The position numbers were made by a program, and so were the translations under genes. The notes under the pieces are model-generated. The model had not been told where the DNA came from. It saw only the letters and a program-made list of their open reading frames with translations, and ran no database searches. From a bacterium (lineage in GTDB: Bacteria > Elusimicrobiota > Elusimicrobia > UBA1565 > UBA9628), in NCBI GenBank assembly GCA_021810245.1, contig JAJZJF010000007.1:1-47128 (forward strand): DNA of 47,128 bases, written 5' to 3'. Each line of letters opens with the position of its first letter. The stretch's first letter is position 1. Shown here piece by piece: positions 7,578-30,484 of the stretch.

Positions 7578-9137
7578 ATGAGCGATTTACCCGTCGAGAC
7601 CCTGCCGGAGCTTCTCAGGCAAAGAGCCAAAGAGGCCCCGGACAAACCTTTTCTTTTCTTCAAAGACCAGGTTTGGACCCGAAAAGAGCTTGATCTCGCC
7701 TCGGATGCCATCGCCCGAAAGCTCGAAGACCTTCAAATCACAACCGGAGAGCGCGCGGCGTTGATTCTCCCCAATGGCCCGGAGTTTATCATCCATTTCT
7801 TTGGAATTTTAAAGGCGGGCGGCATCGCCGTTCCGGTGAATACCGCTCTCAAGGAAGAAGAAATTTCGTTTATCCTCAAAGACTCCGGCGCTTCCGTTTT
7901 ATTAATCGGGTCCGAGCATAAGGCTTCAGGCAACCCCTTTAAACACATTCCAACTCTCAAGACAGTTTTAAGCATTCCCATTGGAGAAAAAAAGAGTTTT
8001 TGGCTGGACTTAGGCCCTGCCTTCCTCGCAAAAGCGTGCCGGAGATTCTCTGGGAATGGTTCCAACTCCCCGCTCCCCGATTCCGCGACGCTGATCTACA
8101 CCTCGGGAACGACCGGTTTTCCCAAGGGCGCGGAATTGACTCATCGCAATTATCTTTTTGACGTCGAAAAATTCGTCGCGGCGACCCAGATGAATGAATC
8201 AGACCGATTTTTGTGTTTCTTGCCGCTTTTCCATGTCAACGCTCAAGTGGTCACCCTTTTATCTCCGCTTTATTGCGGCGGGGCGATGGTCTTGATGGAC
8301 AAATTTTCGCCGAAAGAATTTTTTGAAACCCTCTCCGCGAAAAAAGCCACCGCCTTTAGCGGAGTTCCCTCGGTTTATTCCGTCCTACTGGGAATTCCGG
8401 AATCCGCCAACTATGATTTGTCGTCTCTTCGCTTTTGCATCTGCGGCGCCGCCCCGATGCCGGTCGAGGTTTTTGAGCGCTTTGAGAAAAAATTTAACGC
8501 TTATATCTTGGAAGGATACGGGCTTTCCGAAGGAACCTGCGTGTCCTCGATCAACCCGCCGCCGCCCCAGAAAAGAAAAATCGGCTCTATCGGACTTCCT
8601 CTTAAGCATCAGGAAATGAAAATTTTAGACGCCAATGACCGTCAACTCCCACGCGGAGAGACTGGAGAAATCGCCGTCAAGGGCGAGAATGTCATGAAAG
8701 GTTATTGGAATAATCCCGAGGCGACACTCAAGACCATCAGAAACGGCTGGCTTTACACCGGAGATATGGGATATCAGGACCAAGACGGGTTTTTCTTTAT
8801 CGTCGGACGCTCTAAAGAGATGATTATCCGCGGCGGAGAAAATATTTATCCCAAGGAAGTCGAAGAAGCCCTCTATCGCCATCCTGCGATCCTTGAGGCC
8901 GCCGTCATCGGTCTTCCCAACGAGCGTTGGGGAGAAGAAGTCGCGGCCTTTGTCGTTTTAAAAGAAGGCCAGGGTTTGAGCGCCAAGGATATCCGCGAAT
9001 TTATTAAAGATAAAATCGCCGATTATAAAATTCCACGCAGAATCGAGATCGTCCTTGCGCTTCCCAAAACGGCGACTGGAAAGATCCAAAAGCTAAAACT
9101 CAGAGCCGAAATAATGTCCCGGGAGAGACTCAAATAA
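7578..9137 (+). CDS. Acyl-CoA synthetase / AMP-dependent ligase
   Basis: A 519-residue ANL-superfamily enzyme that activates a carboxylic acid with ATP and joins it to CoA; a fatty acid is the likely substrate. The ORF track extends 164 codons upstream, antisense to the reductase gene. The ATG at 7578 is chosen because homology begins there (LRQRAKEAPDKPFLFF) and GGAG lies upstream. Motifs are A3 (YTSGTTGFPKGAELTH, near residue 175), A5 (YGLSEGT), A7 (YTGDMG), A8 (GRSKEMIIRGGENIYPKEVE) and A10 with the catalytic Lys (PKTATGKIQKLKLR, near residue 500). It appears complete. The downstream glpD-like gene starts in its stop codon, so the pair looks like one lipid/glycerol unit. Confidence 0.92.
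   Translation: MSDLPVETLPELLRQRAKEAPDKPFLFFKDQVWTRKELDLASDAIARKLEDLQITTGERAALILPNGPEFIIHFFGILKAGGIAVPVNTALKEEEISFILKDSGASVLLIGSEHKASGNPFKHIPTLKTVLSIPIGEKKSFWLDLGPAFLAKACRRFSGNGSNSPLPDSATLIYTSGTTGFPKGAELTHRNYLFDVEKFVAATQMNESDRFLCFLPLFHVNAQVVTLLSPLYCGGAMVLMDKFSPKEFFETLSAKKATAFSGVPSVYSVLLGIPESANYDLSSLRFCICGAAPMPVEVFERFEKKFNAYILEGYGLSEGTCVSSINPPPPQKRKIGSIGLPLKHQEMKILDANDRQLPRGETGEIAVKGENVMKGYWNNPEATLKTIRNGWLYTGDMGYQDQDGFFFIVGRSKEMIIRGGENIYPKEVEEALYRHPAILEAAVIGLPNERWGEEVAAFVVLKEGQGLSAKDIREFIKDKIADYKIPRRIEIVLALPKTATGKIQKLKLRAEIMSRERLK
9121..9136 (+). promoter_or_regulatory. Shine-Dalgarno and apparent ATA start of the glpD-like gene
   Basis: GGGAGA lies at 9121-9126. GGAG (9122-9125) is followed by 8 nt and then ATA (9134-9136), normal spacing for initiation. 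ATA overlaps the TAA of the acyl-CoA synthetase gene. No ATG, GTG or TTG occurs in this frame between here and 9203. Confidence 0.6.
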
Positions 9138-12280: not shown

Positions 12281-12297
12281 GGCTCTGTGACAGAGCC
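12281..12297. terminator. Hairpin between convergent genes, possible bidirectional terminator
   Basis: GGCTCTG-TGA-CAGAGCC, a perfect 7-bp stem with a 3-nt loop between convergent stop codons. No clear T-tract follows on either strand, so termination is inferred from position. Confidence 0.5.
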
Positions 12298-12971
12298 TAA
12301 CCTTGGGATTTCGTCGCGATCAGTTGCGGCCAGATGGGGACCAGCGAATTAATAAAAGAATTGGTGATATCGGTAATCGCTGACAGGCGATCTAAACCCT
12401 GATAGGTCATCGAAGCCGACCAAAGAACCTGCCCTGTTTGAACATCCACCATTCGCGACACCATCGAAACCTGGGCCGCGGAAGTGACAATTTGAGAGCC
12501 GGGAACGCCCATCACCGAGCCCTGCGAATAAACGTTGTTTCCCGGGATAGGCGTCATCCCATAGCCATACATTCCTGGATAGCCGACCGCCGGGTATCCC
12601 GCCGCTCCGGTAACGACATAACTTTGACTGGGAGCGCTGGCCACCACGCTACCGACAAAGAGAGCGTCAACGCCGAGAATCTTTCCTACCTGATGAACCG
12701 TTGAGGGATCCAAAATCCCCGAGGCAGCTAGGTGATTTTCATTTAAAATCGCGTTAAGTTGCTGCCGTTCAATGACATTAGCCCCATGGGCCACCAAGGC
12801 CTGGGTCATCATATCCGCCGCCGCATTGCCGTTAGAACCGCTAAAGCCAACGACGGCGACACGATGAATGGACGCGAAATCAAAGCGCGGGTTATAGGCC
12901 ACGCTGGGGGCCGAGGAACACCCGATGACGGCGAGAGAAGCGCTTAAGAAAAGAAAAGAGACTTTTCTCAT
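12297..12971 (-). CDS. CsgG/LpoB-like lipoprotein
   Basis: A 224-residue lipoprotein. The signal peptide ends in a lipobox-like AVIGC (Cys about residue 18). The core IHRVAVVGFSGSNGNAAADMMTQAL, VIERQQLNAIL and VGKILGVDALFVGSVV matches the fold shared by CsgG, LpoB and related lipoproteins. A later MVDVQTGQVLWSASMTYQG is the typical closing strand of that fold. A Gly/Tyr/Pro-rich loop (VGYPGMYGYGMTPIPG) is inserted midway. LpoB-type proteins activate penicillin-binding proteins and CsgG forms secretion pores; this protein lacks an obvious pore insert, so an accessory envelope role is more likely. Its start overlaps the stop of the TPR gene by 4 nt. Confidence 0.75.
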   Translation of the reverse strand: MRKVSFLFLSASLAVIGCSSAPSVAYNPRFDFASIHRVAVVGFSGSNGNAAADMMTQALVAHGANVIERQQLNAILNENHLAASGILDPSTVHQVGKILGVDALFVGSVVASAPSQSYVVTGAAGYPAVGYPGMYGYGMTPIPGNNVYSQGSVMGVPGSQIVTSAAQVSMVSRMVDVQTGQVLWSASMTYQGLDRLSAITDITNSFINSLVPIWPQLIATKSQG

Positions 12972-13460: not shown

Positions 13461-13754
13461 TTAGCAAATTCCAAGCTCGCTTAGAATTTGCGGGATATCG
13501 GCCAACTTTACATGGCTTTTCCAAACCCCATCGGGGTAAATGAATAAATTGGGACCCTGGGCGCATAAATCGAGGCAGCCCGAGTTCGCCACCCTGATTT
13601 TGCCTTTGAGACCCGCCGCCTTGACGGACTCTTTAAGGGCTTTGCAAAGCTCCACCCCGCCTTCTAAAGAATCAGCGCAGGAAGGACGCCCGTCCTCTCT
13701 TTTATTGACGCAAACGAAAACAGTTTTTTGATAGGGAATTTTTTTTCGTTCCAT
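13461..13754 (-). CDS. Thioredoxin-like [2Fe-2S] ferredoxin
   Basis: A 97-residue protein of the (2Fe-2S) ferredoxin family with a thioredoxin-like fold. Four Cys ligands are spaced as expected: C-x10-C near the N-terminus (CVNKREDGRPSC) and C-x3-C later (GCLDLC), followed by the family's AQGPNLFIYPDGVW. A small electron carrier in the cytoplasm. The start overlaps the stop of the MurU-like gene (TAATG), so it is part of the same operon. Why an electron carrier belongs with wall-recycling genes is not evident. Confidence 0.88.
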   Translation of the reverse strand: MERKKIPYQKTVFVCVNKREDGRPSCADSLEGGVELCKALKESVKAAGLKGKIRVANSGCLDLCAQGPNLFIYPDGVWKSHVKLADIPQILSELGIC

Positions 13755-14482
13755 TAAGACAACTCTTCAAGCCAAAAAGGGGCTTCCTGACCCCCTTTCA
13801 GAAAATCCTCGGAATTGCCGACATCACGCCAGGCAAAAGAATCAGCTAAAAAAGCCTGAATATTTTCGCCCTCTTCCGCCAAGCGGAGATATAAATCAAT
13901 GATAGAAAATTTCCCAACTTCCTTGATCTTTGAAAATATCCTGGGGCTGACGACATGAATCCCGTCAAAAGCCAGGGCCTTGAACTCCCCTGATTTTGAA
14001 AAAGACCGGGTTTTTCCCTCTTTTTGGTATCCGCATAAACGGCCTTCCTCAAATAAAAGAAAGCGGGAACTCAAACGCTGGCGCACCGACAAGGTCGCGA
14101 GAGCTCCTTTGGAATCTAAGTGAAATTGATAGAGACTCTTTAAATCAACCCGGCTTAAGACGTCAGCATTATGAATAAAAAAAGGAGCGCCATCTTCCAA
14201 AAAACGCGCCGCGTTTTTAAGCCCGCCTCCAGTCTCGAGAATCTCCTCTTCATGAGAAACCCTGATGGGAACGCCAAAAGACTTTTGGGAAATAAAATCT
14301 TTAATCTGGTCGGCCTTATAATGCGTGTTAATGACAATCGAAGAAACTCGAGCCTTGATCAGCCGCCGAATGGCGATTTCAAGGAGCGAAACGCCTCCAA
14401 CGGTCAAAAGAGGTTTGGGAGTTTTTTCGGTCAATGGGCCCAGCCTCTTTCCAAACCCGGCCGAGAAAATTAAAGCCTGCAT
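13754..14482 (-). CDS. murU: MurU-like sugar-1-phosphate nucleotidyltransferase
   Basis: A 242-residue NTP-transferase. The N-terminal signature MQALIFSAGFGKRLGPLTEKTPKPLL contains the nucleotide loop and the conserved KPKPLL-type segment. ETGGGLKNA and FFIHNADVL provide the metal-binding Asp, and AWRDVGNSEDF closes the fold. Length fits MurU (MurNAc-1-phosphate uridylyltransferase, about 225-240 residues); mannose-1-phosphate guanylyltransferases are similar and cannot be excluded. The neighbouring AmgK-like kinase, 12 bp upstream, is what points to MurU: kinase plus uridylyltransferase convert recycled MurNAc to UDP-MurNAc. Confidence 0.8.
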   Translation of the reverse strand: MQALIFSAGFGKRLGPLTEKTPKPLLTVGGVSLLEIAIRRLIKARVSSIVINTHYKADQIKDFISQKSFGVPIRVSHEEEILETGGGLKNAARFLEDGAPFFIHNADVLSRVDLKSLYQFHLDSKGALATLSVRQRLSSRFLLFEEGRLCGYQKEGKTRSFSKSGEFKALAFDGIHVVSPRIFSKIKEVGKFSIIDLYLRLAEEGENIQAFLADSFAWRDVGNSEDFLKGGQEAPFWLEELS

Positions 14483-14494
14483 GAAAGAATAAAA

Positions 14495-15940
14495 TTAAGC
14501 GACAGGCTGAGGCAAACTCAAGTGTTTCACCAGAACGTTTAATGAGAAATTTTTCCTCAGATGTTCCGCCAATTTTTCCGCGCAATAGACCGAGCGATGG
14601 CGCCCGCCCGTGCATCCAAAAGCGACAAAAAGATTTGAAAATCCGCGAGAAGTATAATTTTCAACGCTTTGATCGATAATTGAAAAGATAGAAGTTAAGA
14701 ATCTTTTAACCTCGGGACTTTTGTCTAAAAGCGAAATCACCTCGGCGTCCAAGCCCGTTAAATTGGCCATCTTTTTATCGCGCCCGGGATTCGGCAAGGC
14801 CCGGCAATCAAACACAAAACCGCCGCCATGCCCATTTTCATCTCTAGGAACTCCCGCGGGATAAGAAAAACTAAAAATATTGACCGTCAGTTTCTTGGTC
14901 GCTGCGCCCAAAGCCATCAACTGGGGAGAAGAAGCCATTTTCTTAAGCAAGGGAACAAAGGCGGGCAAGGAAACTCCTAGTTCTTGCGTTTCCAGAAGCC
15001 AGGACAAATTCTTAAGAGCGAAAGGGATGCTCTGAAGAAAATGAGGTTTTCTATCGTAAAATCCTCTCAAACCGTAGGCTCCGAGAGCCTGGAGAATGCG
15101 AATCAAAATAAAGCCTGGGTAATATTTCATGAAAGCGGCACGATTATAAGACGTTGTTTTTCCCAAAGCTTTTAAGTAGGCCTCTAACAGCTCTTCTCTA
15201 AAGGCCGCGCTAAGATTAGCCTTAGCGTCAAAAGCGAGAGAGGCGATATCATATTGCAAGGCCCCGTGCCGCCCCCCTTGATAATCGATAAAAGCGGGCT
15301 TTCCGCCGCAGACCATGATATTTCTCGACTGAAAATCGCGGTATAGGAAATAATTGGAATCAGCTCCCGACAGGAAATCGCTAAAGCGCTCAAAATCTTC
15401 TTCCAAGGCCTGCTCATCAAACGGGATATGGGCCAAGGTTAGAAAATAATATTTAAAATGATTCATGTCCCAAAGCATGGATTTTTTATCAAAATGGGAG
15501 CGCGGATAGCAGGCGGAATAGTCTAAGTTTTTTCCCGCTTCGACTTGAAAACGCGGCAAGATTTCAGCCGCTTCCAAATAGACGGAAGCGACCTCGGGCG
15601 GTATTTTCTGTTTCGATCGGTTTTGAGAGAGATAGTCAAAAAGTGTCACATCCCCCAAATCTTCTTCCAAATAAACTCCAGCGCCAAGGTTTTCAGCGTA
15701 GATTTCGGGCACGAAAAGCCCGCTTTTGCGGAAGCGCCTTGAGAAAGAAAGGAAGGCCTCGTTTTCCTTTCTCTCCGGCCCCCAAACCCCAATGACGCTT
15801 AGATTTTTGGCGCGCAAGCGAAAAATCTTCCGACTGGATCCGTCGCCTTTCAAAGCCTCAATGGAAACAGGAGCTTGAGAGAAGGTTTTTTTAAATAGGG
15901 CTAAAAGAGATGATTCTGGAGTTTCCAACGAGCCTCTCAC
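14495..15940 (-). CDS. AmgK-like sugar kinase fused to a RapZ C-terminal domain
   Basis: A 481-residue two-domain protein. Residues 1-340 are an aminoglycoside-phosphotransferase-type kinase: glycine-rich GDGSSRKIFRL, catalytic loop YRDFQSRNIMV, metal-binding FIDYQGGRHGALQYDIAS. This resembles AmgK, which phosphorylates MurNAc/GlcNAc at the anomeric position. Residues about 355-475 match the C-terminal domain of RapZ: FVFDCRALPNPGRDKKMANLTGLD and VAFGCTGGRHRSVYCAEKLAEHL. In E. coli RapZ the GCTGGxHRSV segment lies in the glucosamine-6-phosphate sensing domain. The RapZ N-terminal P-loop domain is absent. The start is GTG, overlapping the regulator's stop (GTGA). Inference: the RapZ part may sense amino-sugar phosphates and tune the kinase. 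Confidence 0.85.
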   Translation of the reverse strand: MRGSLETPESSLLALFKKTFSQAPVSIEALKGDGSSRKIFRLRAKNLSVIGVWGPERKENEAFLSFSRRFRKSGLFVPEIYAENLGAGVYLEEDLGDVTLFDYLSQNRSKQKIPPEVASVYLEAAEILPRFQVEAGKNLDYSACYPRSHFDKKSMLWDMNHFKYYFLTLAHIPFDEQALEEDFERFSDFLSGADSNYFLYRDFQSRNIMVCGGKPAFIDYQGGRHGALQYDIASLAFDAKANLSAAFREELLEAYLKALGKTTSYNRAAFMKYYPGFILIRILQALGAYGLRGFYDRKPHFLQSIPFALKNLSWLLETQELGVSLPAFVPLLKKMASSPQLMALGAATKKLTVNIFSFSYPAGVPRDENGHGGGFVFDCRALPNPGRDKKMANLTGLDAEVISLLDKSPEVKRFLTSIFSIIDQSVENYTSRGFSNLFVAFGCTGGRHRSVYCAEKLAEHLRKNFSLNVLVKHLSLPQPVA

Positions 15941-16341
15941 GAAGGCTTGCCCTTCTTGCGATTTTCGACCGCCGCAATCGCGCGCTCAATCTTAGTCTTA
16001 AGCGCCTCGATTTCGACGGGTTTAACGATATAGTCGACGGCGCCAAATAAAAGGGCGTCATTTAAGGTCGCGGCATCGGCAAGGCCGGAAACGACGATGA
16101 TGGGAATATCAGAATATTTGGCCGAAGCCCGAAGTTCCCGCGTAAAAGCGATTCCATCTTCTCCCGGCATCATGATGTCCATTAATATCAGGCTTGGCTT
16201 GCGCACTTCAATGGCTTCCCGCGCTTCCTTAGCGCTAAGAGCACACGCGGCGTCATAGCCCAAAAACGGCAGTGTCTTTTCGTAAAACTCGCATAAAGAC
16301 ACCTCATCATCCACCGCCAAAATTAAGTGTTTATTCGCCAT
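15937..16341 (-). CDS. REC-only response regulator
   Basis: A 134-residue stand-alone receiver domain. The ATG at 16341 is chosen (AAGGA 7 nt upstream; homology starts at HLILAVDDE), 10 codons inside the track ORF. Conserved residues are visible: acidic pair in AVDDE, phospho-acceptor Asp in LILMDIMMPGEDG, Ser in IVVSG, and Lys in YIVKPV. There is no output domain, so it must act by protein contact. Its 5' end overlaps the MauE/DoxX gene by 11 bp and its stop overlaps the kinase start. No histidine kinase gene is in the window. Confidence 0.9.
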   Translation of the reverse strand: MANKHLILAVDDEVSLCEFYEKTLPFLGYDAACALSAKEAREAIEVRKPSLILMDIMMPGEDGIAFTRELRASAKYSDIPIIVVSGLADAATLNDALLFGAVDYIVKPVEIEALKTKIERAIAAVENRKKGKPS

Positions 16342-16843
16342 GATTGTTCCTTTTCCCAGCCCACAAGTCAAGAGCCCAAATCGGCTGAACCTTAAATATA
16401 ATCAGCGATAAGATAATGAGGACAAAATCAACGCCAATCATGATTTTAGGCTCGGGATGAAAAGAGGCCCCAAAACACCCGCAGCTAGGCAGCTCGATGC
16501 CGCGAATCTTTAGAGAGAAAAGCGCGAAGTCAAAAGCGATAAACAAAATACCGGAAGCGACAGTGAAAAGACGCAAAAGATATCCCGTCAACAAACTGTA
16601 TCCAATCAACAGCTCAAGCCACGGCAAGAATGTCGCCAAGGTCAAGGCGGTCGAAGGGGAAACCAAGTTATAGGCTTCAATGATGAGCGCAAACTCTTCT
16701 TTGGGCGCCGCCAGTTTAGAGACTCCGGCGACAATCAAGATAATTCCAATAAGAAGCCGGGCAAAAACGGAAATAAACCTAAAGGCCTTAGAAGATGAGG
16801 CTCGTTTCTCCGGCGAACTTTTGACTTCGGTTTCTTTATCCAT
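16331..16843 (-). CDS. MauE/DoxX-family membrane protein
   Basis: A 170-residue integral membrane protein with four hydrophobic helices (about 25-45, 72-92, 95-118, 130-152). The loop motif LPSCGCFG, a Cys pair next to Phe-Gly, is characteristic of the MauE branch of the DoxX-like superfamily, which supplies or relays disulfide/thiol electrons for periplasmic maturation. It overlaps the DsbA-like gene by 8 bp, and such pairs commonly cooperate, the membrane protein re-oxidising or reducing the thioredoxin partner. Direction of electron flow cannot be told from sequence. Confidence 0.82.
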   Translation of the reverse strand: MDKETEVKSSPEKRASSSKAFRFISVFARLLIGIILIVAGVSKLAAPKEEFALIIEAYNLVSPSTALTLATFLPWLELLIGYSLLTGYLLRLFTVASGILFIAFDFALFSLKIRGIELPSCGCFGASFHPEPKIMIGVDFVLIILSLIIFKVQPIWALDLWAGKRNNHGE

Positions 16844-22120: not shown

Positions 22121-22960
22121 TTATTCAAAGTTTTTCTTTAAGACCCGCTTGACCGCAAGAGACGAACCCAGAAATCTCCGGGAGAGCCTGAGAAATCTCT
22201 CGGGATCATCGGAAACGTAGAAGCGAGACCAACCGCGCCCGGTCCTTTTCCTTAAATTGAGAGCCTCAAGCGTCTTTTCAAATTCTTGAGCGGTGTGTTC
22301 TCCCGAATCAATCAAAGACACATTTTTTCCCATAACCCGGGAAATAACCGGTTTGATGACCGGATAATGCGTACACCCCAGAACCAGCGAATCAACCCGG
22401 GCTTTTTGAAGAGGCTTAAGATAGATCCGGGCCACCTCTTCGGTCACGCCATATTTCCACCATCCCTCTTCGACCAAGGGAACAAAAAGCGGGCATGGCG
22501 CTTCGAAAACTCGGGCCTGTGGAGAAAATCTTTTAATTTCAGCGGCATAAGCCCCAGACCGGACGGTACCCTCAGTTCCAATGACCCCAATTCTGCGAAA
22601 CCCCCTCCGCACGCAAGCCCGCGCGCCAGGGACAATGACGCCTTCCACTGGAACGGAAACCGCTTTTTTAATCGCGGACAAAGCGACTGCAGAAGAGGTA
22701 TTGCACGCCACTACCAGCGCCTTGATTTTTTGCTGGCATAGGAAATGGGCGATTTCAACCGAGAACTGAATAATCGAAGCCCGCGATTTCGACCCATAAG
22801 GCAAATGAGCCGTGTCTCCAAAATAAATCATGTTCTCTTGAGGCATCAACTTGCGCAAGGCCTTAAAAACAGTCAACCCCCCAATGCCCGAGTCAAAAAT
22901 TCCGATGGGACGCTCGGCCTTTAAGCCGCTATTTTTTTGGATGATTGATTTTTTTTGCAT
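22121..22960 (-). CDS. murI: Glutamate racemase
   Basis: A 279-residue cofactor-independent racemase that makes D-glutamate for peptidoglycan. Catalytic motifs are visible: IGIFDSGIGGLTVFKAL and the first Cys in VVACNTSSAVAL, the second Cys in VLGCTHYPVI, and the substrate-site VSLIDSGEHTA. The track start is a TTG; the ATG at 22960 is preferred. It begins 32 bp inside the end of amiC. Its place after amiC and the elongation genes fits a wall-synthesis cluster. Confidence 0.95.
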   Translation of the reverse strand: MQKKSIIQKNSGLKAERPIGIFDSGIGGLTVFKALRKLMPQENMIYFGDTAHLPYGSKSRASIIQFSVEIAHFLCQQKIKALVVACNTSSAVALSAIKKAVSVPVEGVIVPGARACVRRGFRRIGVIGTEGTVRSGAYAAEIKRFSPQARVFEAPCPLFVPLVEEGWWKYGVTEEVARIYLKPLQKARVDSLVLGCTHYPVIKPVISRVMGKNVSLIDSGEHTAQEFEKTLEALNLRKRTGRGWSRFYVSDDPERFLRLSRRFLGSSLAVKRVLKKNFE

Positions 22961-24161
22961 ATTCCACAATGCCCGTGTATAAGCCGCGCATAAGACGCTG
23001 GCGGAAACTTTCGCTCCTTAAATCTCGCTCATCCTGGGGATTGGTCAGATATCCCATCTCAAACAGAATGGCTGGCGCATGAGTTCCTCTTAAAACATAA
23101 AACCCCGCTTGTTCAACCCCTCTGTCCGGGATATTGACTTCTCCGCTGGCCTCGCGCGAGACCAGCCCCGCGAATTCAGAAGAAGCGTTGACATATTCCG
23201 TTTTCGATAATTCTCCCAATAACATCTGAACTTCCGCTTCCTGGCGAAATTTAGACTCATAGTTAATCGAAGAGTTTTCAAACTCCGCCAAGCGCTGCGC
23301 ATGAGGGTCGGAAGCCTTCTCCGACATAAAATAAGTCTCAAAACCGGAATCTCTGGGATTTTTAGCGGCATTGGAATGAAGAGACACAAATAAATCGGCT
23401 TTCCACTGATTGGCAATCTCCGAGCGTTTGGAGAGAGAAATAAAGGTGTCGTTATGCCGCGTCAATTTGACTTCAAAAACCCCCGTCTTTTTTAGCAAAC
23501 GCGCAAGCTCTAATGCCGCTTTAAGATTGACGTCTTTTTCAAGGGTTCCGCCAATTCCCCGAGCTCCAGGATCCTTGCCGCCATGCCCCGGATCGATGAC
23601 GATGCGGAGCTTTCGGACCCAGATATGGCCATCGGGAATTTGGTTTTGAGCGCTGGAAGTCGTCTGAGGCCGAGAACGCGCCGCCGCCACTGGAATTGGT
23701 TTTGACTCTCCGATCGTCAAGAGCGCCTTATGCTCATCAAAAAAGGCGGGAGTTCCGGACCAATCGACAAAAGCGGGAGACTCTAAAAAGGAAATCGGGA
23801 TCCAAGCCTCCGAAGCGCTCCATATCACCTGCGATTTAAGCGGAATGGAACGCCCCGACACCGAGGCGGCGGTGGCATTGGCCTCAAAAGCGAGGATATT
23901 TCCCGAGCGGCTTAATTCCACGATTTTTGACACTGGGCGCCAGTATATTTGGGCCTTATACAGACGCGCCATTTCATCCGCGCTTAAAAAATAATTAGAA
24001 CCTAAGCGGTATCCAGAAACTATCTTCGGAGGGTTGCCGGTATGGGCAAACGCAATTGAAACCGGAGCCGCCTCCGCAAAAACGGAAAGCGGAAAAAAAA
24101 GCGGCGCCAAAATCAAAAAGCGGCAGAAGGCCCAAAATGCTGGACTATTAATTTCGCTCAT
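22929..24161 (-). CDS. amiC: N-acetylmuramoyl-L-alanine amidase (AmiC type)
   Basis: A 410-residue periplasmic zinc amidase that cleaves the bond between MurNAc and the stem peptide. A signal peptide (FLILAPLFFPLSVFAEA) is followed by a copper-amine-oxidase-N-like/AMIN-like beta domain at about 35-145 (SGYRLGSNYFLSADEMARLY...WIPISFLES), a Pro/Ser linker, and an Amidase_3 domain from about 180: VIDPGHGGKDPGARG (zinc His), the zinc His in FVSLHSNA, and the catalytic Glu in AILFEMGYLTNPQDE. It overlaps the RNase gene's stop by 4 nt. Confidence 0.93.
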   Translation of the reverse strand: MSEINSPAFWAFCRFLILAPLFFPLSVFAEAAPVSIAFAHTGNPPKIVSGYRLGSNYFLSADEMARLYKAQIYWRPVSKIVELSRSGNILAFEANATAASVSGRSIPLKSQVIWSASEAWIPISFLESPAFVDWSGTPAFFDEHKALLTIGESKPIPVAAARSRPQTTSSAQNQIPDGHIWVRKLRIVIDPGHGGKDPGARGIGGTLEKDVNLKAALELARLLKKTGVFEVKLTRHNDTFISLSKRSEIANQWKADLFVSLHSNAAKNPRDSGFETYFMSEKASDPHAQRLAEFENSSINYESKFRQEAEVQMLLGELSKTEYVNASSEFAGLVSREASGEVNIPDRGVEQAGFYVLRGTHAPAILFEMGYLTNPQDERDLRSESFRQRLMRGLYTGIVEYAKKINHPKK

Positions 24162-25855
24162 TCTATGATAATGCGATAATCCTCCAAGGGAATCGTCGGG
24201 GTCGATTCAACCTTAATTGAGCGTTGAATATTTTTTTCGATCATGGCTTGTTTGGATTTAAGAGACTCCGCAATTAATGGATGGACGCAAACGCGCACCT
24301 GCCCTCCGGGACGTCCGCGCGTCATGTCGAGAATCTCCTCCTGGATTTTAATGCGCATCGTCTCTTCGGACAAAACCCGTCCAGAACCGTGGCATTCACG
24401 GCACTCCTGGGTGATTAACTTGACCGTGGATTCGCGCTTGCGCTCCCGAGTCAATTCAATTAAGCCCAATCTCGTAATCGGAAGAATCCTAATCTTCGCG
24501 CGGTCTCCTCTCAAGGCCGCCGCAAAAGCCTCCATGACCTTATTTCTATTGGAAGCCTTTTTCATGTCGATAAAATCAACGACGATAATGCCGCCGATAT
24601 TTCTCAGCCGCAATTGATGCGCTACTTCCTTTGCCGCCTCGATGTTAGTTTGAGTGACGGTTTCTTCCTGGGATTTGGAGCCGGTAAAACGCCCGGTATT
24701 GACGTCGATGGCGCAAAGAGATTCCGCCTCTTGAATGACAATCGAGCCCCCATTGGGCAGAGAAACGACGGGCTTGCGCATTTTCTCAATACCCTCTTCA
24801 ATCTTAAACGCTTTAAAAATCGGCGTCTTCCCATCATAGAACTGAATTCTCTTTTTGAGTTCTGGGGAAATTTTATCGATGAATTCAGATAAGCGCTCAC
24901 AGGTTTCTTTGTTGTCGCACAAAAAAATTGCGACATCTTCAGAAAGAATATCGCGAGCGACCTGAAGGGTCAAATCCAGATCTTTATGGAGAAGAGCAGG
25001 CGCCGGCTCAGACTGCATTTTCTTTTGGATATCTTCCCAAAGGCTCAACAAATAGCGCGCTTCGCGCTCAAGCTCTTGCGCTGGAACTCCTTCCGCTTCG
25101 GTTCTCGCGACTAAGCCTTTCCCGCCCAAGATTCCGGAAACAAAACCCTGCATCAAGGCGGAAAGCCTCGCCCTTTCATCGGAATTCTCAATATTTTTAG
25201 AGACCCCCGCGAAATTCTCAAATGGAGTAAACACCACGTACCGTCCTGGAAGGCTAACGGCCATCGTCACCTTCATTCCCTTGGTCCCAATCGCCTCCTT
25301 GGCGATCTGAATCATCACCGGTTGATTTTTTTTCAGGATGGACTCAATGCCGGCATTTTTATCTCCCAGAACGTCCGATATATAAAGGTAGGCGTTTTTA
25401 TCGTAGCCGATATTGATAAAGGCAGAAGAGATTCCAGGAAGGACGTTTTCAATCACTCCCTTGTAAATATTGCCGACCAGATTCTGCTGGTTTTTCCGCT
25501 CCCAGAAGAGCTCGACCAATTTCCCATTCTCCAGAATCGCGATGCGAACTTCCTCGTTGTTGACATTGGCGAGAATCTCTCTTTTGACCGGAGACGCCGG
25601 CAAGGGAGCGCCGGAATTATCCGCGGCGGACGCATGGGACGCATGGGACTCATGCGGGCGATGTCCATTCCCAGGTTTCTGGCCTTGGCGCTCCGACTTT
25701 CTCTGGGAATGAAAACGCCGGCGTTTCTGCCTACGCTTATCATCCACGCCTACAGGCGCCGGGGATGCGGCTTTTTCCAAAACTTCGGACTGCTCTTGGC
25801 TTGCCGCCACCTCTTCTTTTAAATCTTCTTTTTGCGAAATTTCTTCTTCAGACAT
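24158..25855 (-). CDS. rng: Ribonuclease E/G family protein
   Basis: A 565-residue endoribonuclease for mRNA decay and rRNA maturation. AGGAGG lies 6 nt before the third Met codon (25855) but abuts the track's first, so 25855 is chosen. Residues 1-95 are a low-complexity Lys/Arg/Glu and His-rich arm (KRRQKRRRFHSQRKSERQ, SHASHAS). The catalytic half follows: an S1 domain (GNIYKGVIENVLPGISSAFINIG), the DNase-I-like core with metal Asp residues (ESLCAIDVNTGRFTG, IIVVDFIDM), and the Zn-link CRECHGSG. No long C-terminal degradosome scaffold is present, so it is closer to RNase G in layout. Confidence 0.93.
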   Translation of the reverse strand: MSEEEISQKEDLKEEVAASQEQSEVLEKAASPAPVGVDDKRRQKRRRFHSQRKSERQGQKPGNGHRPHESHASHASAADNSGAPLPASPVKREILANVNNEEVRIAILENGKLVELFWERKNQQNLVGNIYKGVIENVLPGISSAFINIGYDKNAYLYISDVLGDKNAGIESILKKNQPVMIQIAKEAIGTKGMKVTMAVSLPGRYVVFTPFENFAGVSKNIENSDERARLSALMQGFVSGILGGKGLVARTEAEGVPAQELEREARYLLSLWEDIQKKMQSEPAPALLHKDLDLTLQVARDILSEDVAIFLCDNKETCERLSEFIDKISPELKKRIQFYDGKTPIFKAFKIEEGIEKMRKPVVSLPNGGSIVIQEAESLCAIDVNTGRFTGSKSQEETVTQTNIEAAKEVAHQLRLRNIGGIIVVDFIDMKKASNRNKVMEAFAAALRGDRAKIRILPITRLGLIELTRERKRESTVKLITQECRECHGSGRVLSEETMRIKIQEEILDMTRGRPGGQVRVCVHPLIAESLKSKQAMIEKNIQRSIKVESTPTIPLEDYRIIIE

Positions 25856-25875
25856 GACCATCCTCCTATCAAATT

Positions 25876-27219
25876 TTATAAAAGCGCGTACTTGCGCCTA
25901 CCCACATTAGCGACAATTCCCAAAGACCATAAACTGGCCATTAAACTGGATCCTCCATATGAAATCAACGGCAGGGGAATTCCCGCAACAGGGAAAAGAC
26001 CCAGACACATTCCGACGTTTAAAATGAAGTCGAAAGCGAACATCGAGGCAATTCCGCAGCAAACCAAATATCCATATCGATCGCGGGCATTAGAGCCAAT
26101 CTCCGTAATTCGCCAAATCATCCCCAAATAAAGAAGAATCACAATCACCGCGCCGACAAAACCCATCTCTTCTCCAATGACGGAATAAATAAAATCCGTG
26201 TGTCTCTCCGGGAGAAAACCCAATTGAGACTGGGTTCCGGAGAAAAGGCCTTTCCCGATAAACCCGCCCGAACCGATGGCGATCTGGGACTGGTGGACGT
26301 GGTAAGCCGCCCCATGGATATCGGAATGAGGATTAATATAAGCGGTAAATCGGCTCTTTTGATATCCTTTCAATTTATGACTGACCGCGATTCCCACTAA
26401 CACGCCAGAGGTCAATAGAAGCCAAAAAACGAGAAACAAACTTGCCCTCAAGCGCCAGCGCATTAAAAAATTAGCGTAATAGGCCGCTCCGAAAATAGCG
26501 GCTAAAACTAAAACAAAAACGAACTCGGACAACTTAGACTGAAACACCTCCATAAAAAAATAAAGCAAGCTTCCTGAGGATGGATGGGCATAATAAGAGC
26601 CTAAAAATAAATAAAGAAACGGCATCGAAGCCGCAGAGACGGAAAAAAGGCTAAGGCCAGACAAGTATTCCCATCCGGCTCCGGCGCAGAAAAGCATCGC
26701 AAAAAAAATAGGAAACAAAGTCAAAGTCATCGAGAAATCAGGCTGTTTGACAATCAAAAGGACGATCGGGGCAATCGCCGCTAGAGACATGGAAATCGTC
26801 GAAAGGTATTCCATCTTAAGCGCTCTCTTATCAAAGATTGCGGCCAAAATTAATATCATTCCCACCCGGGCAAACTCGGAGGGTTGAAAAGCGAAAAAAC
26901 CGAGTTGTATCCAAGAGCGGTGCCCCTTATGGACGGTCCCCACAAGCAAAACCGCGACCAGGCAAGAAATGATAAACCCATAAACAGCCCAAAATTGATC
27001 TTCATAGACCTCATATGCGAAGTTGGCCGCGACGGTGAAAATAAAAAGGCCAAAAAGCATCGCCGAAAAATGCCGTTCAAGAGCTTGGTGGTAATACGGA
27101 AGCGGACGAGTGGCCGAGAAAACAGCTAAACTCCCTACGATTAAGAGAGATAATACCGCTCCCAAGAAAACGCCGTCAAGACGACTCTTTCTGGATGAAG
27201 AACGGGGAAAGCCAATCAC
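25876..27219 (-). CDS. rodA: RodA, SEDS peptidoglycan glycosyltransferase
   Basis: A 447-residue polytopic membrane protein that polymerises glycan strands during elongation, paired with PBP2. About ten hydrophobic segments are seen. The SEDS signature is present: IAIGSGGFIGKGLFSGTQSQLGFLPERHTDFIYSVIGEEMGF, including the catalytic-region Glu/Asp, and the C-terminal PVAGIPLPLISYGGSSLM. GTG start with GGAGAG upstream, overlapping the mrdA stop. Confidence 0.95.
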   Translation of the reverse strand: MIGFPRSSSRKSRLDGVFLGAVLSLLIVGSLAVFSATRPLPYYHQALERHFSAMLFGLFIFTVAANFAYEVYEDQFWAVYGFIISCLVAVLLVGTVHKGHRSWIQLGFFAFQPSEFARVGMILILAAIFDKRALKMEYLSTISMSLAAIAPIVLLIVKQPDFSMTLTLFPIFFAMLFCAGAGWEYLSGLSLFSVSAASMPFLYLFLGSYYAHPSSGSLLYFFMEVFQSKLSEFVFVLVLAAIFGAAYYANFLMRWRLRASLFLVFWLLLTSGVLVGIAVSHKLKGYQKSRFTAYINPHSDIHGAAYHVHQSQIAIGSGGFIGKGLFSGTQSQLGFLPERHTDFIYSVIGEEMGFVGAVIVILLYLGMIWRITEIGSNARDRYGYLVCCGIASMFAFDFILNVGMCLGLFPVAGIPLPLISYGGSSLMASLWSLGIVANVGRRKYALL

Positions 27220-29054
27220 AGGGTCTCTCCTTTCCGGGAAGAGCCGATTTTTTTTGGAGAAAATTTAGGCCATTCATACTGAGATTTTTTTCCGACTCGA
27301 AAATCCGCAGCAATGACTTGTCTTGCAATAGGAACAGCGGCGGAGGCTCCGTGGCCTCCGTTTTCAACCAAAACAGACACCGCAATTGAGGGAGCTTGTC
27401 CGGGCTTTCCCGCGAAAGCGATAAACCAGGCATGGTCTCTCCCAGATGAGTTCTGCGCGGTTCCGGTTTTCCCCCAAACCTGAATCCCTTTAATATAAGC
27501 TCCTCTGGCGGTTCCCGAGGCAACGACCAAGGACATCGCCTGGTCGAGCAAATTCCAGGTCTTGTTACTGGCCCGCACAAAACCAAGCTGATGGGGGTTC
27601 TCCTTTAAAATTTCGCTGCCATCCTTGGAATCGATAGAACTCAGATATTGAGGCCGCCATAGAGTCCCATGATTAGCCAAGGCCTCAGTAACGACCGCCA
27701 TCTGAAGCGGCGTGACCAAAAGCTGACCTTGGCCAATCGCAAGATTAAGCGTGTCTCCGCCAATCCACGGCTTGCCTTTTTTCATAGAGGTTTCAGGGCC
27801 GAACAAATTGCCAGCCTCCTCGCCCTTTAAAGCGATTCCCGTTTTTTGTCCAAGATGAAAGAGCTTGGAGTATTTTTCGATCAAACTCGCGCCAATGGCA
27901 AGCCCCATCTTATAAAAATAAACATCGCAAGACTGGGCGAACGCGGTCAAGAAATCGACATTCCCATGCCCGCGATGATTCCAGCATAAAAAAGTCCTTC
28001 GCCCTAACTTAAAATATCCGGGGCAGAAAACAATCTGGGCCGGATTTAATTTTCCCTCGTTAATTCCGGCGACAGAAACAATCGTTTTAAATGTCGACCC
28101 TGGAGCATAAAGTCCGGAAATCGCGCGGTCAAACTCCGGCACCGAAGAAGGGACAAAGGTCGAATAATCTACGGAGAAGGGATCCGCTCCCAAAAGCTCA
28201 TTGGGGTCAAAACTAGGAGCCGCCGCGAAAGCGAGAATATCCCCATTCGATGGATCTAAGGCAATGACGGCTCCCCTTTGAGTCGCGGTATGGCGAAGCC
28301 CTTCATCGGCGGCCCGCTGAACAATGGCATCCAAGGTCAGATGAATATTTCTCCCGTCTTTCCATGGAAGCTGCTTTAGAATTTTCTGAATTCGCCCCTG
28401 AGCGTCAACTTCTATTTTGACGGCGCCGTCTGTTCCGCGCAATTGTCTTTCGAAAATCGACTCAAGCCCCAGCCGCCCGATTCGGGAATCCATGCGATAA
28501 TTTTCATTTTTCAATCTCGCCCATTGCCCCGGGGTAATTTTACCCATATAGCCGATCAAGTGACTGGCAAAAGGCCCGAAAGGGTAATAGCGCCGAGCTT
28601 CGAGAACTAAATCTATTCCCGGATAAAAAGGCTTGAGCTCGGAAAGTCGAAACATCACCGGAATGGATAGGTTCTCCGCGATGCGCGAAGACTCTCTTGA
28701 TTGGCGCGCCTGACGCAATTTCGCCAATATTATTCCGGGATCCTGCCGCAAGACTTGGCTTAATTCTGCGGCCAAGCGGTTTAATTCTTTCTGGTTTGTC
28801 TCTCCGGATGGCGGAAGATAAATCAGCGAAAAAACCGGCTCATTGGTCGCTAGCGGAATGCCGTTTCTATCATAAATGATTCCCCGCGGAGCGGTCTGAT
28901 AGACCATCTCGGTTCGATTCCGGTTCGCGGCCAACTCGTAAGCCTTTTTTTCCAAAATTTGCATCTGAAAAAGCCGAAGGACTAAAACTGCCGCGACAAA
29001 GGCGAACCCAGCCAGAAGCAGCTGTAACCTTTCAGGCGAAAAATTTCTCTTCAT
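27216..29054 (-). CDS. mrdA: Penicillin-binding protein 2 (elongation transpeptidase)
   Basis: A 612-residue class B PBP that cross-links peptidoglycan in the elongasome. One N-terminal membrane anchor (LQLLLAGFAFVAAVLVLRLF) is followed by the pedestal domain and the transpeptidase domain with SxxK (APGSTFKT, about residue 324), SxN-type SCD (FAQSCDVYFYKMG) and KTG (VWGKTGTAQNSSG). It overlaps mreD by one base and rodA by four, so the elongasome genes are translationally coupled. Confidence 0.96.
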   Translation of the reverse strand: MKRNFSPERLQLLLAGFAFVAAVLVLRLFQMQILEKKAYELAANRNRTEMVYQTAPRGIIYDRNGIPLATNEPVFSLIYLPPSGETNQKELNRLAAELSQVLRQDPGIILAKLRQARQSRESSRIAENLSIPVMFRLSELKPFYPGIDLVLEARRYYPFGPFASHLIGYMGKITPGQWARLKNENYRMDSRIGRLGLESIFERQLRGTDGAVKIEVDAQGRIQKILKQLPWKDGRNIHLTLDAIVQRAADEGLRHTATQRGAVIALDPSNGDILAFAAAPSFDPNELLGADPFSVDYSTFVPSSVPEFDRAISGLYAPGSTFKTIVSVAGINEGKLNPAQIVFCPGYFKLGRRTFLCWNHRGHGNVDFLTAFAQSCDVYFYKMGLAIGASLIEKYSKLFHLGQKTGIALKGEEAGNLFGPETSMKKGKPWIGGDTLNLAIGQGQLLVTPLQMAVVTEALANHGTLWRPQYLSSIDSKDGSEILKENPHQLGFVRASNKTWNLLDQAMSLVVASGTARGAYIKGIQVWGKTGTAQNSSGRDHAWFIAFAGKPGQAPSIAVSVLVENGGHGASAAVPIARQVIAADFRVGKKSQYEWPKFSPKKIGSSRKGETL

Positions 29055-29548
29055 TAGACGATGCTTCTAAACCTAGACGATGGGAGATAGGAATTGGGCC
29101 TCAGCACGGCCAAAATAAAGCAGAAAAATCCATTGTAAAGAGGCTCAAGGATAAACACAAGCCATCCCACCCATAAAAATTGTCCGGAGAAAATTAAAAA
29201 GATAAACCCCAAAATCAGGCGGTAAAGAACCGTCGCGACGACAGCGACAATGGCTTGGGAAGCGGGAGTATTCATGTCCACGTGCCTCCGAACAAGCCCG
29301 AGGCCGTAGGCAATCAAGGTCAAAACCAAAGCTCGCGCTCCAAACAACTTAAGACTGAGAGCATCCCAAAAAAGCCCCCAGAAAAATCCGAAGATCATCG
29401 CCTCCACCGCGCCGCTAACGGCCGCGACATTGATCGTTAAAATCAATAAAATCTGCGGGTTAAGTCCTCGAAATGATAGATAGCGGGAAAAGATCCATTC
29501 ACCCAGCAGCCCCAAGAAAAAAATCGCTACGCGCTTAATCAATTTCAT
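29054..29548 (-). CDS. mreD: Rod-shape protein MreD
   Basis: A 164-residue hydrophobic protein with about five membrane helices, typical length and composition for MreD. Identification rests mainly on position between mreC and mrdA and on the MreD-like opening (RYLSFRGLNPQILLILTINVAAVSG) and FGFFWGLFWDALSLKLFGA. Bridges the cytoplasmic MreB filaments to wall synthases. The start overlaps the mreC stop by 4 nt. Confidence 0.88.
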   Translation of the reverse strand: MKLIKRVAIFFLGLLGEWIFSRYLSFRGLNPQILLILTINVAAVSGAVEAMIFGFFWGLFWDALSLKLFGARALVLTLIAYGLGLVRRHVDMNTPASQAIVAVVATVLYRLILGFIFLIFSGQFLWVGWLVFILEPLYNGFFCFILAVLRPNSYLPSSRFRSIV

Positions 29549-30402
29549 TGGTTAATTTTAGCCTTGTTGACCCCAAGCCCCACCAAAACCTCGTTAATCT
29601 CAGATGGAGAGAGAGCCGGCCGGACATCAGCGGATTTAAAAATCAAAAATGGATCGACGGGATAAACCTTAACGACCGTCCCAATCAAAATCGACGGCGG
29701 AAAACTAACGCTATTGGGCGAAGTATACACCTTTTCTCCTTCTTCCAAAGGAGCTTGAACCGGAAGATAACTAATCTGCAGATTGGGCGCGTCCGAGCCT
29801 TGGATGAGGCCGTTAAATGATCCATGGGTATGAGAACTTTGAGAAACGATAAAAGAATCAATCGCTGAAAGATCGCTGGTCAATAACTGAATAACCGCGG
29901 TATTAGAATGGACCTCAAGCACGCGGCCCACCGCCGCGAGAGTGTTGCCATCAACGGCAAAGACTGGGTCGTTAAGTTCAACTCCCTTATTTTTTCCAAC
30001 GGAAATAATGAAATCCTGATACCAATCAGCCGGAGAACGTTGAATGACCTGGCCCCAGACAAAAGAAAAGGAAACGTGCTTTCCAAAATCCATTTCGGAG
30101 CGCAGGCGATCATTCTCGGTTTTTAAAGAATCGATCTCCGCATTCAAAACCGGCTCCATTTTTATCTCATCTTTTAATTCTCTATTTTGAATGTCGGCCG
30201 ATAATAGATTTCTCAAGGAAAGAGGAATTTCAGATATCCGCTTAAGGCCGTCGGCCCCTTGATAGAGCCCCGGATCGATTAAATACTGCAGAGAAGCTTT
30301 AAAAGAAGCGACTGGAACAGACAATGGCAATGATAATAAGAGAATGGAAATTCCAATAAAAAAAATCGCCAGTCGATTGGCTAGCCGCAACTCGCGGTGC
30401 AT
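29545..30402 (-). CDS. mreC: Rod-shape protein MreC
   Basis: A 285-residue single-pass membrane protein of the elongasome. The ATG at 30402 is preferred to the track's TTG two codons earlier. One TM helix (LAIFFIGISILLLSLPLSV), a short coiled coil (LKDEIKMEPVLNAEIDSLKTENDRLRSE), then the periplasmic beta domain with the family's SVGKNKGVELNDPVFAVDG and GRVLEVHSNTAVIQLLT. It forms periplasmic filaments that activate PBP2. Spaced 82 bp from mreB, the largest gap in this part of the run. Confidence 0.94.
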   Translation of the reverse strand: MHRELRLANRLAIFFIGISILLLSLPLSVPVASFKASLQYLIDPGLYQGADGLKRISEIPLSLRNLLSADIQNRELKDEIKMEPVLNAEIDSLKTENDRLRSEMDFGKHVSFSFVWGQVIQRSPADWYQDFIISVGKNKGVELNDPVFAVDGNTLAAVGRVLEVHSNTAVIQLLTSDLSAIDSFIVSQSSHTHGSFNGLIQGSDAPNLQISYLPVQAPLEEGEKVYTSPNSVSFPPSILIGTVVKVYPVDPFLIFKSADVRPALSPSEINEVLVGLGVNKAKINQ

Positions 30403-30484
30403 ATTCAATTAGTCAGAGACAACACTTTATCAGGAAGAACGCAAAACGCCACGCGACAGGAATTCCCGCTCCCGAGCGCAAAAA

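Follow-up and report, generated by a model that had tools for sequence, protein, structure and literature searches.

A single polypeptide of the Elusimicrobiota joins an AmgK-like anomeric sugar kinase to the C-terminal domain (CTD) of RapZ, and its gene adjoins one for a MurU-like nucleotidyltransferase. The same arrangement recurs in the Bacteroidota, where the kinase and MurQ avoid each other and the CTD co-occurs with AnmK. Tentatively, with a confidence that falls somewhat short of even, we favour the reading that the fusion is a two-step enzyme, a MurNAc-6-phosphate (MurNAc-6P) phosphatase and MurNAc 1-kinase feeding MurU, that would serve the anabolic recycling of MurNAc.

Domain structure and genomic context

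The analyzed stretch of 47,128 nucleotides (the window) belongs to an Elusimicrobiota genome of 2.03 Mb that is 94% complete. The features relevant to the fusion are the following.

14495..15940, minus strand: fusion protein of 481 aa, AmgK-like anomeric sugar kinase plus RapZ CTD (Pfam, NCBIfam and PDB sequence matches)
14951..15940, minus strand: kinase part, residues 1 to ~330, APH fold (APH at 58-258, AmgK model at 11-310)
14495..14890, minus strand: RapZ CTD, residues 351-481 (PapZ_C at 351-474, AlphaFold2 model)
14819..14839, minus strand: Gly-rich stretch ENGHGGG, residues 368-374, subfamily-specific in the alignment with RapZ
14591..14614, minus strand: C-X5-R-S pocket loop CTGGRHRS, residues 443-450 (alignment and CTD model)
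13754..14482, minus strand: MurU-like nucleotidyltransferase of 242 aa (NCBIfam), adjoining the fusion 12 bp downstream
15937..16371, minus strand: response-regulator receiver protein (receiver-domain families), overlapping the start of the fusion by 4 nt
13461..13754, minus strand: 2Fe-2S ferredoxin-like protein, abutting murU, a neighbour at the genus level only

The fusion gene starts with GTG, and the GTGA overlaps the stop codon of the upstream response-regulator gene. The original prediction had proposed a direct fusion of an AmgK-like kinase to the RapZ CTD that lacks the P-loop part of RapZ, and this is what Pfam returned: APH at residues 58-258 (E 3.1e-9, above the cut-off) and PapZ_C (PF22740) at residues 351-474 (E 4.9e-34, 117.6 bits versus a cut-off of 27), the latter a clearly significant relation of the C-terminal region to RapZ. 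The P-loop N-terminal domain of RapZ (PF03668) was not found in the 481 residues, while it was found in E. coli RapZ, which served as the positive control. In line with this, the NCBIfam RapZ family matches the fusion over the CTD part only, below its equivalog cut-off, and a comparison by sequence with the PDB aligned E. coli RapZ to residues 335-476 and the aminoglycoside-phosphotransferase-family entry 3csv to residues 19-307. The kinase part has the APH fold with the catalytic Asp/Asn motif and the metal-binding Asp; the motifs YRDFQSRN (200-207) and IDYQGG (218-223) are invariant in an alignment of seven sequences. Its AmgK scores in NCBIfam lie below the equivalog cut-offs (58.8 bits versus 550 and 49.1 versus 500). 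The fusion is genuine and no assembly artefact, since the single open frame recurs in dozens of independent genomes.

MurU was the best of 28 NCBIfam families for the 242-aa neighbour (119.9 bits, below the equivalog cut-off of 250), and a comparison of loci showed murU to be the sole widely conserved neighbour of the fusion. The response-regulator gene was seen in the genus of the window alone (loci L001-L005 and the duplicates L031-L033 and L036), and the loci of other genera lack it. A Mur ligase gene next to the fusion in locus L006 was considered as Mpl, an assignment that was rejected: the protein scores best as MurC and the neighbour is not conserved.

Elsewhere in the window, some 6 kb separate the fusion from a wall and shape cluster upstream of it (22121-30408, likewise on the minus strand), with genes for a glutamate racemase, an N-acetylmuramoyl-L-alanine amidase, an RNase E/G family protein, RodA, PBP2 and MreC. 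Two genes past the ferredoxin-like gene, the product of 12297-12971 (minus strand) shows a weak match to the LpoB family of penicillin-binding-protein activators (E 0.002, far below the cut-off). No RNA family was detected in the window with Rfam. The earlier suggestion that the fusion operates without an sRNA circuit is not one that can be claimed, considering that congeners have a separate RapZ and that an RNase E/G gene is present within the window. The RapZ P-loop domain was not found in the 94%-complete genome of the window, which probably reflects a gap in the assembly and possibly a real loss.

Sequence and structure of the RapZ domain

We aligned 54 fusion CTDs (in part from genomes that are nearly identical) and four standalone CTDs with 17 Elusimicrobia RapZ sequences and that of E. 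coli. The fusion and standalone CTDs carry five extra Gly-rich residues (at 368-374 in the fusion of the window), the GG of which is invariant and which are absent from all 17 RapZ. Moreover, position 190 is Gly in every fusion and standalone CTD, whereas it is Asn, Tyr, His or Phe in RapZ, and position 191 is Arg or Lys in all but two of them, against Tyr in the 17 RapZ and Trp in E. coli. Val183 is replaced by Cys in nearly all, and position 236 is usually Arg. Conversely, none of the 75 CTDs (54 fusion, 4 standalone, 17 RapZ) deviates at C247, T248, G249, G250, H252, R253 or S254. Thus, four of the five residues of the RapZ pocket set (H190, T248, G249, H252 and R253) are invariant, the fifth being Gly in the fusions and Asn, Tyr or Phe in most Elusimicrobia RapZ. 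The basic C-terminal tail with which E. coli RapZ binds RNA has no clear counterpart in the aligned fusion of the window. In the tree, one branch splits the fusion CTDs from RapZ (SH-aLRT 100). Judged by alignment and tree, the fused CTDs constitute one subfamily that has kept the pocket loop GCTGGxHRS.

An AlphaFold2 model of the CTD, made from six sequences, reached a pLDDT of 90.6. Its closest structures were 5o5s, 5o5o and 8b0j, it superposes on the CTD of E. coli RapZ (5o5s) with an rmsd of 1.7 A, and its convincing Foldseek matches were to RapZ only. RapZ-CTD-like folds were also seen in the giant viruses Klosneuvirus, Yasminevirus and Hyperionvirus (BFVD A0A1V0SIZ8, A0A5K0UAE1 and A0A3G5A6C5). 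The model of the full-length fusion (pLDDT 63, pTM 0.41) was too poor for judging the interface between the domains. The fused CTD is thus like RapZ/YvcJ in its fold and its invariant loop, and differs in the Gly-rich insert, in the residues at positions 190 and 191 and in being attached to a sugar kinase instead of a P-loop domain.

In the CTD model the conserved loop connects a strand (93-100) to a helix (106-121), with the Cys ending the strand and the Arg beginning the helix. This placement of a C-X5-R-S loop, as predicted by the model, resembles that in the Cys-dependent tyrosine phosphatases. The resemblance is local and limited to the loop, since there was no phosphatase fold among the significant Foldseek matches of the model. 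The motif C-X5-R-[S/T] is absent from the 30 other ORFs of the window.

Distribution and annotation

The sampling covered the Elusimicrobiota (147 genomes, namely that of the window and those of relatives), the Bacteroidota (198 genomes) and plasmid records. By a count from the match table, about 70 of the 147 genomes have the fusion, whole or as a fragment; most of the remaining ones match over the CTD only, which is consistent with a separate RapZ. The linkage to a MurU-like gene that was noted in the window is general: the gene adjoins the fusion in all 37 Elusimicrobia genomes checked (30 distinct and 7 more) and in 17 of the 24 CTD-bearing Bacteroidota, the other seven being G147, G160, G164, G181, G275, G278 and G327. 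These 24 genomes, out of 198, all encode the kinase as well; the two parts are fused in 20, encoded by adjacent separate genes in three (G178, G159 and G242) and located on different contigs in one (G327).

Fusions with 41-43% identity to that of the window were recovered from the plasmid collection for Parabacteroides distasonis, Phocaeicola massiliensis, Bacteroides finegoldii and a Prevotella, and in the three of these four records that were checked all motifs are present. Both annotated records name the protein 'RNase adapter RapZ', followed by an adjoining 'nucleotidyltransferase family protein' (RefSeq):

L167, 4016-5446: 'RNase adapter RapZ' of Parabacteroides distasonis, WP_005858754.1
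L169, 3971-5401: 'RNase adapter RapZ' of Bacteroides finegoldii, WP_237923178.1

These Bacteroidales proteins are like the fusion of the window in being fused, in the order with a nucleotidyltransferase next door and in their motifs. The name reflects the C-terminal domain only, and the kinase half is thereby hidden. As to whether the fusion was already known from other phyla, it is thus present in public databases, where copies of Parabacteroides and Bacteroides bear the misnomer RapZ, while we found no published description of a kinase-RapZ CTD fusion in the literature on AmgK, MupP and RapZ. The fusion is an undescribed yet database-visible variant of a known pathway.

Co-occurrence with genes of MurNAc recycling

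The Pseudomonas route runs from MurNAc-6P, formed by AnmK, through dephosphorylation by MupP and phosphorylation at C1 by AmgK to UDP-MurNAc, made by MurU; in Beta- and Gammaproteobacteria either the AmgK route or MurQ is found (PMC5371407). We scored MurQ as present at E < 1e-45 and made contingency tables for the 198 Bacteroidota, the p-values of which assume independent genomes and carry a much lower true weight, since on the kinase tree about three changes each of AnmK and MurQ suffice (parsimony) among the CTD-bearing genomes: the kinase and MurQ are nearly exclusive, MurQ being present in 10 of 67 genomes with the kinase and in 130 of 131 without it (Fisher p 5e-38); among the genomes with the kinase, AnmK is present in 17 of the 24 with the CTD, and hence missing from seven, versus none of the 43 without it (p 1e-10); and among the genomes with AnmK, the eight that lack MurQ all have the CTD, and MurQ is present in each of the 119 without the CTD (p 1e-8). 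The near-exclusion of kinase and MurQ is like the pattern of AmgK and MurQ in Proteobacteria (PMC5371407). Together with the conserved linkage in two phyla, the avoidance of MurQ by the AmgK-type genes in Bacteroidota supports the originally proposed role in the salvage of wall amino-sugars.

For the Elusimicrobia no significant association of the fusion with AnmK (p 0.22) or MurQ (p 0.26) was found. The genome of the window encodes AnmK, MurQ, MurA and GlmS, and MurQ is also present in most fusion-bearing Elusimicrobia. The idea that MurQ is missing and that the fusion replaces it was rejected for this group. Since MurQ offers MurNAc-6P another outlet in the genome of the window, the route via the fusion is not the sole one.

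The system is thus like AmgK-MurU-MupP of Pseudomonas in the pairing of an AmgK-like kinase with a MurU-like uridylyltransferase, in the near-exclusion of MurQ in Bacteroidota and in the presence of AnmK in the window's genome; it differs in the RapZ CTD on the kinase, in the sub-cut-off scores of kinase and MurU and in the presence of MurQ in that same genome. The scores, far below the equivalog cut-offs, and the many sugars that the nucleotidyltransferase family spans would agree with a kinase that acts on C1 of GlcNAc, glucosamine or a hexose for a surface polysaccharide, with the RapZ domain following the substrate. We consider this improbable, given that no family matches the neighbour better than MurU, that the kinase nearly excludes MurQ and is associated with AnmK in Bacteroidota, and that an AmgK/MurU-type route for exogenous MurNAc was predicted for T. 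forsythia (PMC5790795, PMC7670621).

Phylogeny of the kinase

A kinase tree, made by a quick method, gathers the copies from Elusimicrobia in a single group (support 99) that includes one Bacteroidota copy (G275) and is placed beside or within the Bacteroidota diversity, which suggests transfer between the two phyla. The kinase-only Bacteroidota copies of G175, G328 and G191, sampled from a large kinase-only set, are remote, whereas that of G156, although kinase-only, is found among the fused copies. The kinase of G178, with its split genes, is sister to the fused copy of G271 (97), and the split is likely a fission as judged from this placement. In the locus concerned (L102), the kinase and the CTD have open frames of their own, which almost touch (at ~7993-7999) and precede murU. 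An ancestral state with split genes is disfavoured, since the positions of G178 and G156 favour fission or loss, albeit with some uncertainty given the long branches.

The existence of a kinase-only relative such as G156 also bears on the idea that the CTD is a mere module for oligomerisation or a scaffold. The RapZ CTD does form tight dimers in crystals (PMC5737377). Nevertheless, considering in addition that 75 sequences show no variation in the pocket residues, such a purely structural role seems very unlikely to us.

Function of the RapZ domain

The original prediction held that the kinase is gated by GlcN6P. The pocket has kept its phosphate side, but its sugar side is unlike that of RapZ, in which replacement of His190 abolishes activity (H190A in E. 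coli; PMC9841335). As the sugar side is changed in every fusion CTD, and as the co-occurrence follows AnmK and MurQ and thereby points to the chemistry of MurNAc-6P, we have demoted gating by GlcN6P to an alternative. Instead, we read the domain as a module that handles phosphosugars in the recycling of MurNAc, most likely as a phosphatase, although our confidence in this stays just short of the halfway mark, and otherwise as a sensor.

According to the favoured two-step reading, the CTD would bind MurNAc-6P, the product of AnmK, and dephosphorylate it by means of the C-X5-R-S loop. The N-terminal kinase would then re-phosphorylate the freed sugar at C1, and the adjoining MurU-like enzyme would convert the product to UDP-MurNAc, bypassing MurA and MurB. 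The Gly at 190, the Arg or Lys at 191 and the insert would be expected of a pocket that accommodates a bulkier, lactyl-bearing sugar. The CTD would thus take the place of MupP, which in Pseudomonas is a HAD phosphatase unrelated to it.

That the loop may be catalytic has been proposed for RapZ itself. Khan and Goerke noted its resemblance to that of the Cys-dependent tyrosine phosphatases and proposed that GlcN6P may be hydrolysed over time (PMC7199280). Co-crystals of E. coli RapZ with GlcN6P contained a likely 'chemically transformed product' in the pocket, for which the authors suggested a catalytic -SH, and the C247S replacement abolishes activity (PMC9841335). Since C247 mutants lose RNA binding too (PMC9841335), the loss of function is no proof of catalysis, and the papers on RapZ that we consulted report no phosphatase activity of its CTD. 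The connection of the putative catalytic pocket to MurNAc recycling is our own suggestion.

Alternatively, the CTD could be an allosteric sensor: with a sugar phosphate or a nucleotide sugar as its ligand (GlcN6P, MurNAc-6P, GlcNAc-6P or UDP-sugars), which it would not turn over, it would control how active the fused kinase is. The conserved phosphate side of the pocket would suit such a role, and genomes that have both MurQ and the fusion would profit from a means of switching between routes. On the other hand, the invariant residues of the loop, including the Cys and the Ser, are kept in every copy, turnover by RapZ has been hinted at (PMC9841335, PMC7199280), with the altered sugar side GlcN6P itself is not the obvious choice of ligand, and in G327 CTD and kinase are on different contigs. 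We regard a sensor as a serious contender, though one about which we are doubtful.

The fusion sets a RapZ domain beside wall-sugar salvage enzymes and away from any sRNA, which makes it a clean test of whether the domain is an enzyme, a question that stems from E. coli RapZ (PMC9841335, PMC7199280). It also proposes a dephosphorylator of MurNAc-6P for those Bacteroidota that have AnmK and lack MurQ, and exposes a misannotation in widely found gut genera, whose wall-sugar kinases go by the name 'RNase adapter RapZ' in the databases. Taken further, and with appreciable reservation, the protein may be a bifunctional enzyme for the MupP and AmgK steps that is misnamed in gut Bacteroidales, in which case the RapZ domain would be an enzyme by descent and its role with sRNAs in enterobacteria a later use of the pocket.
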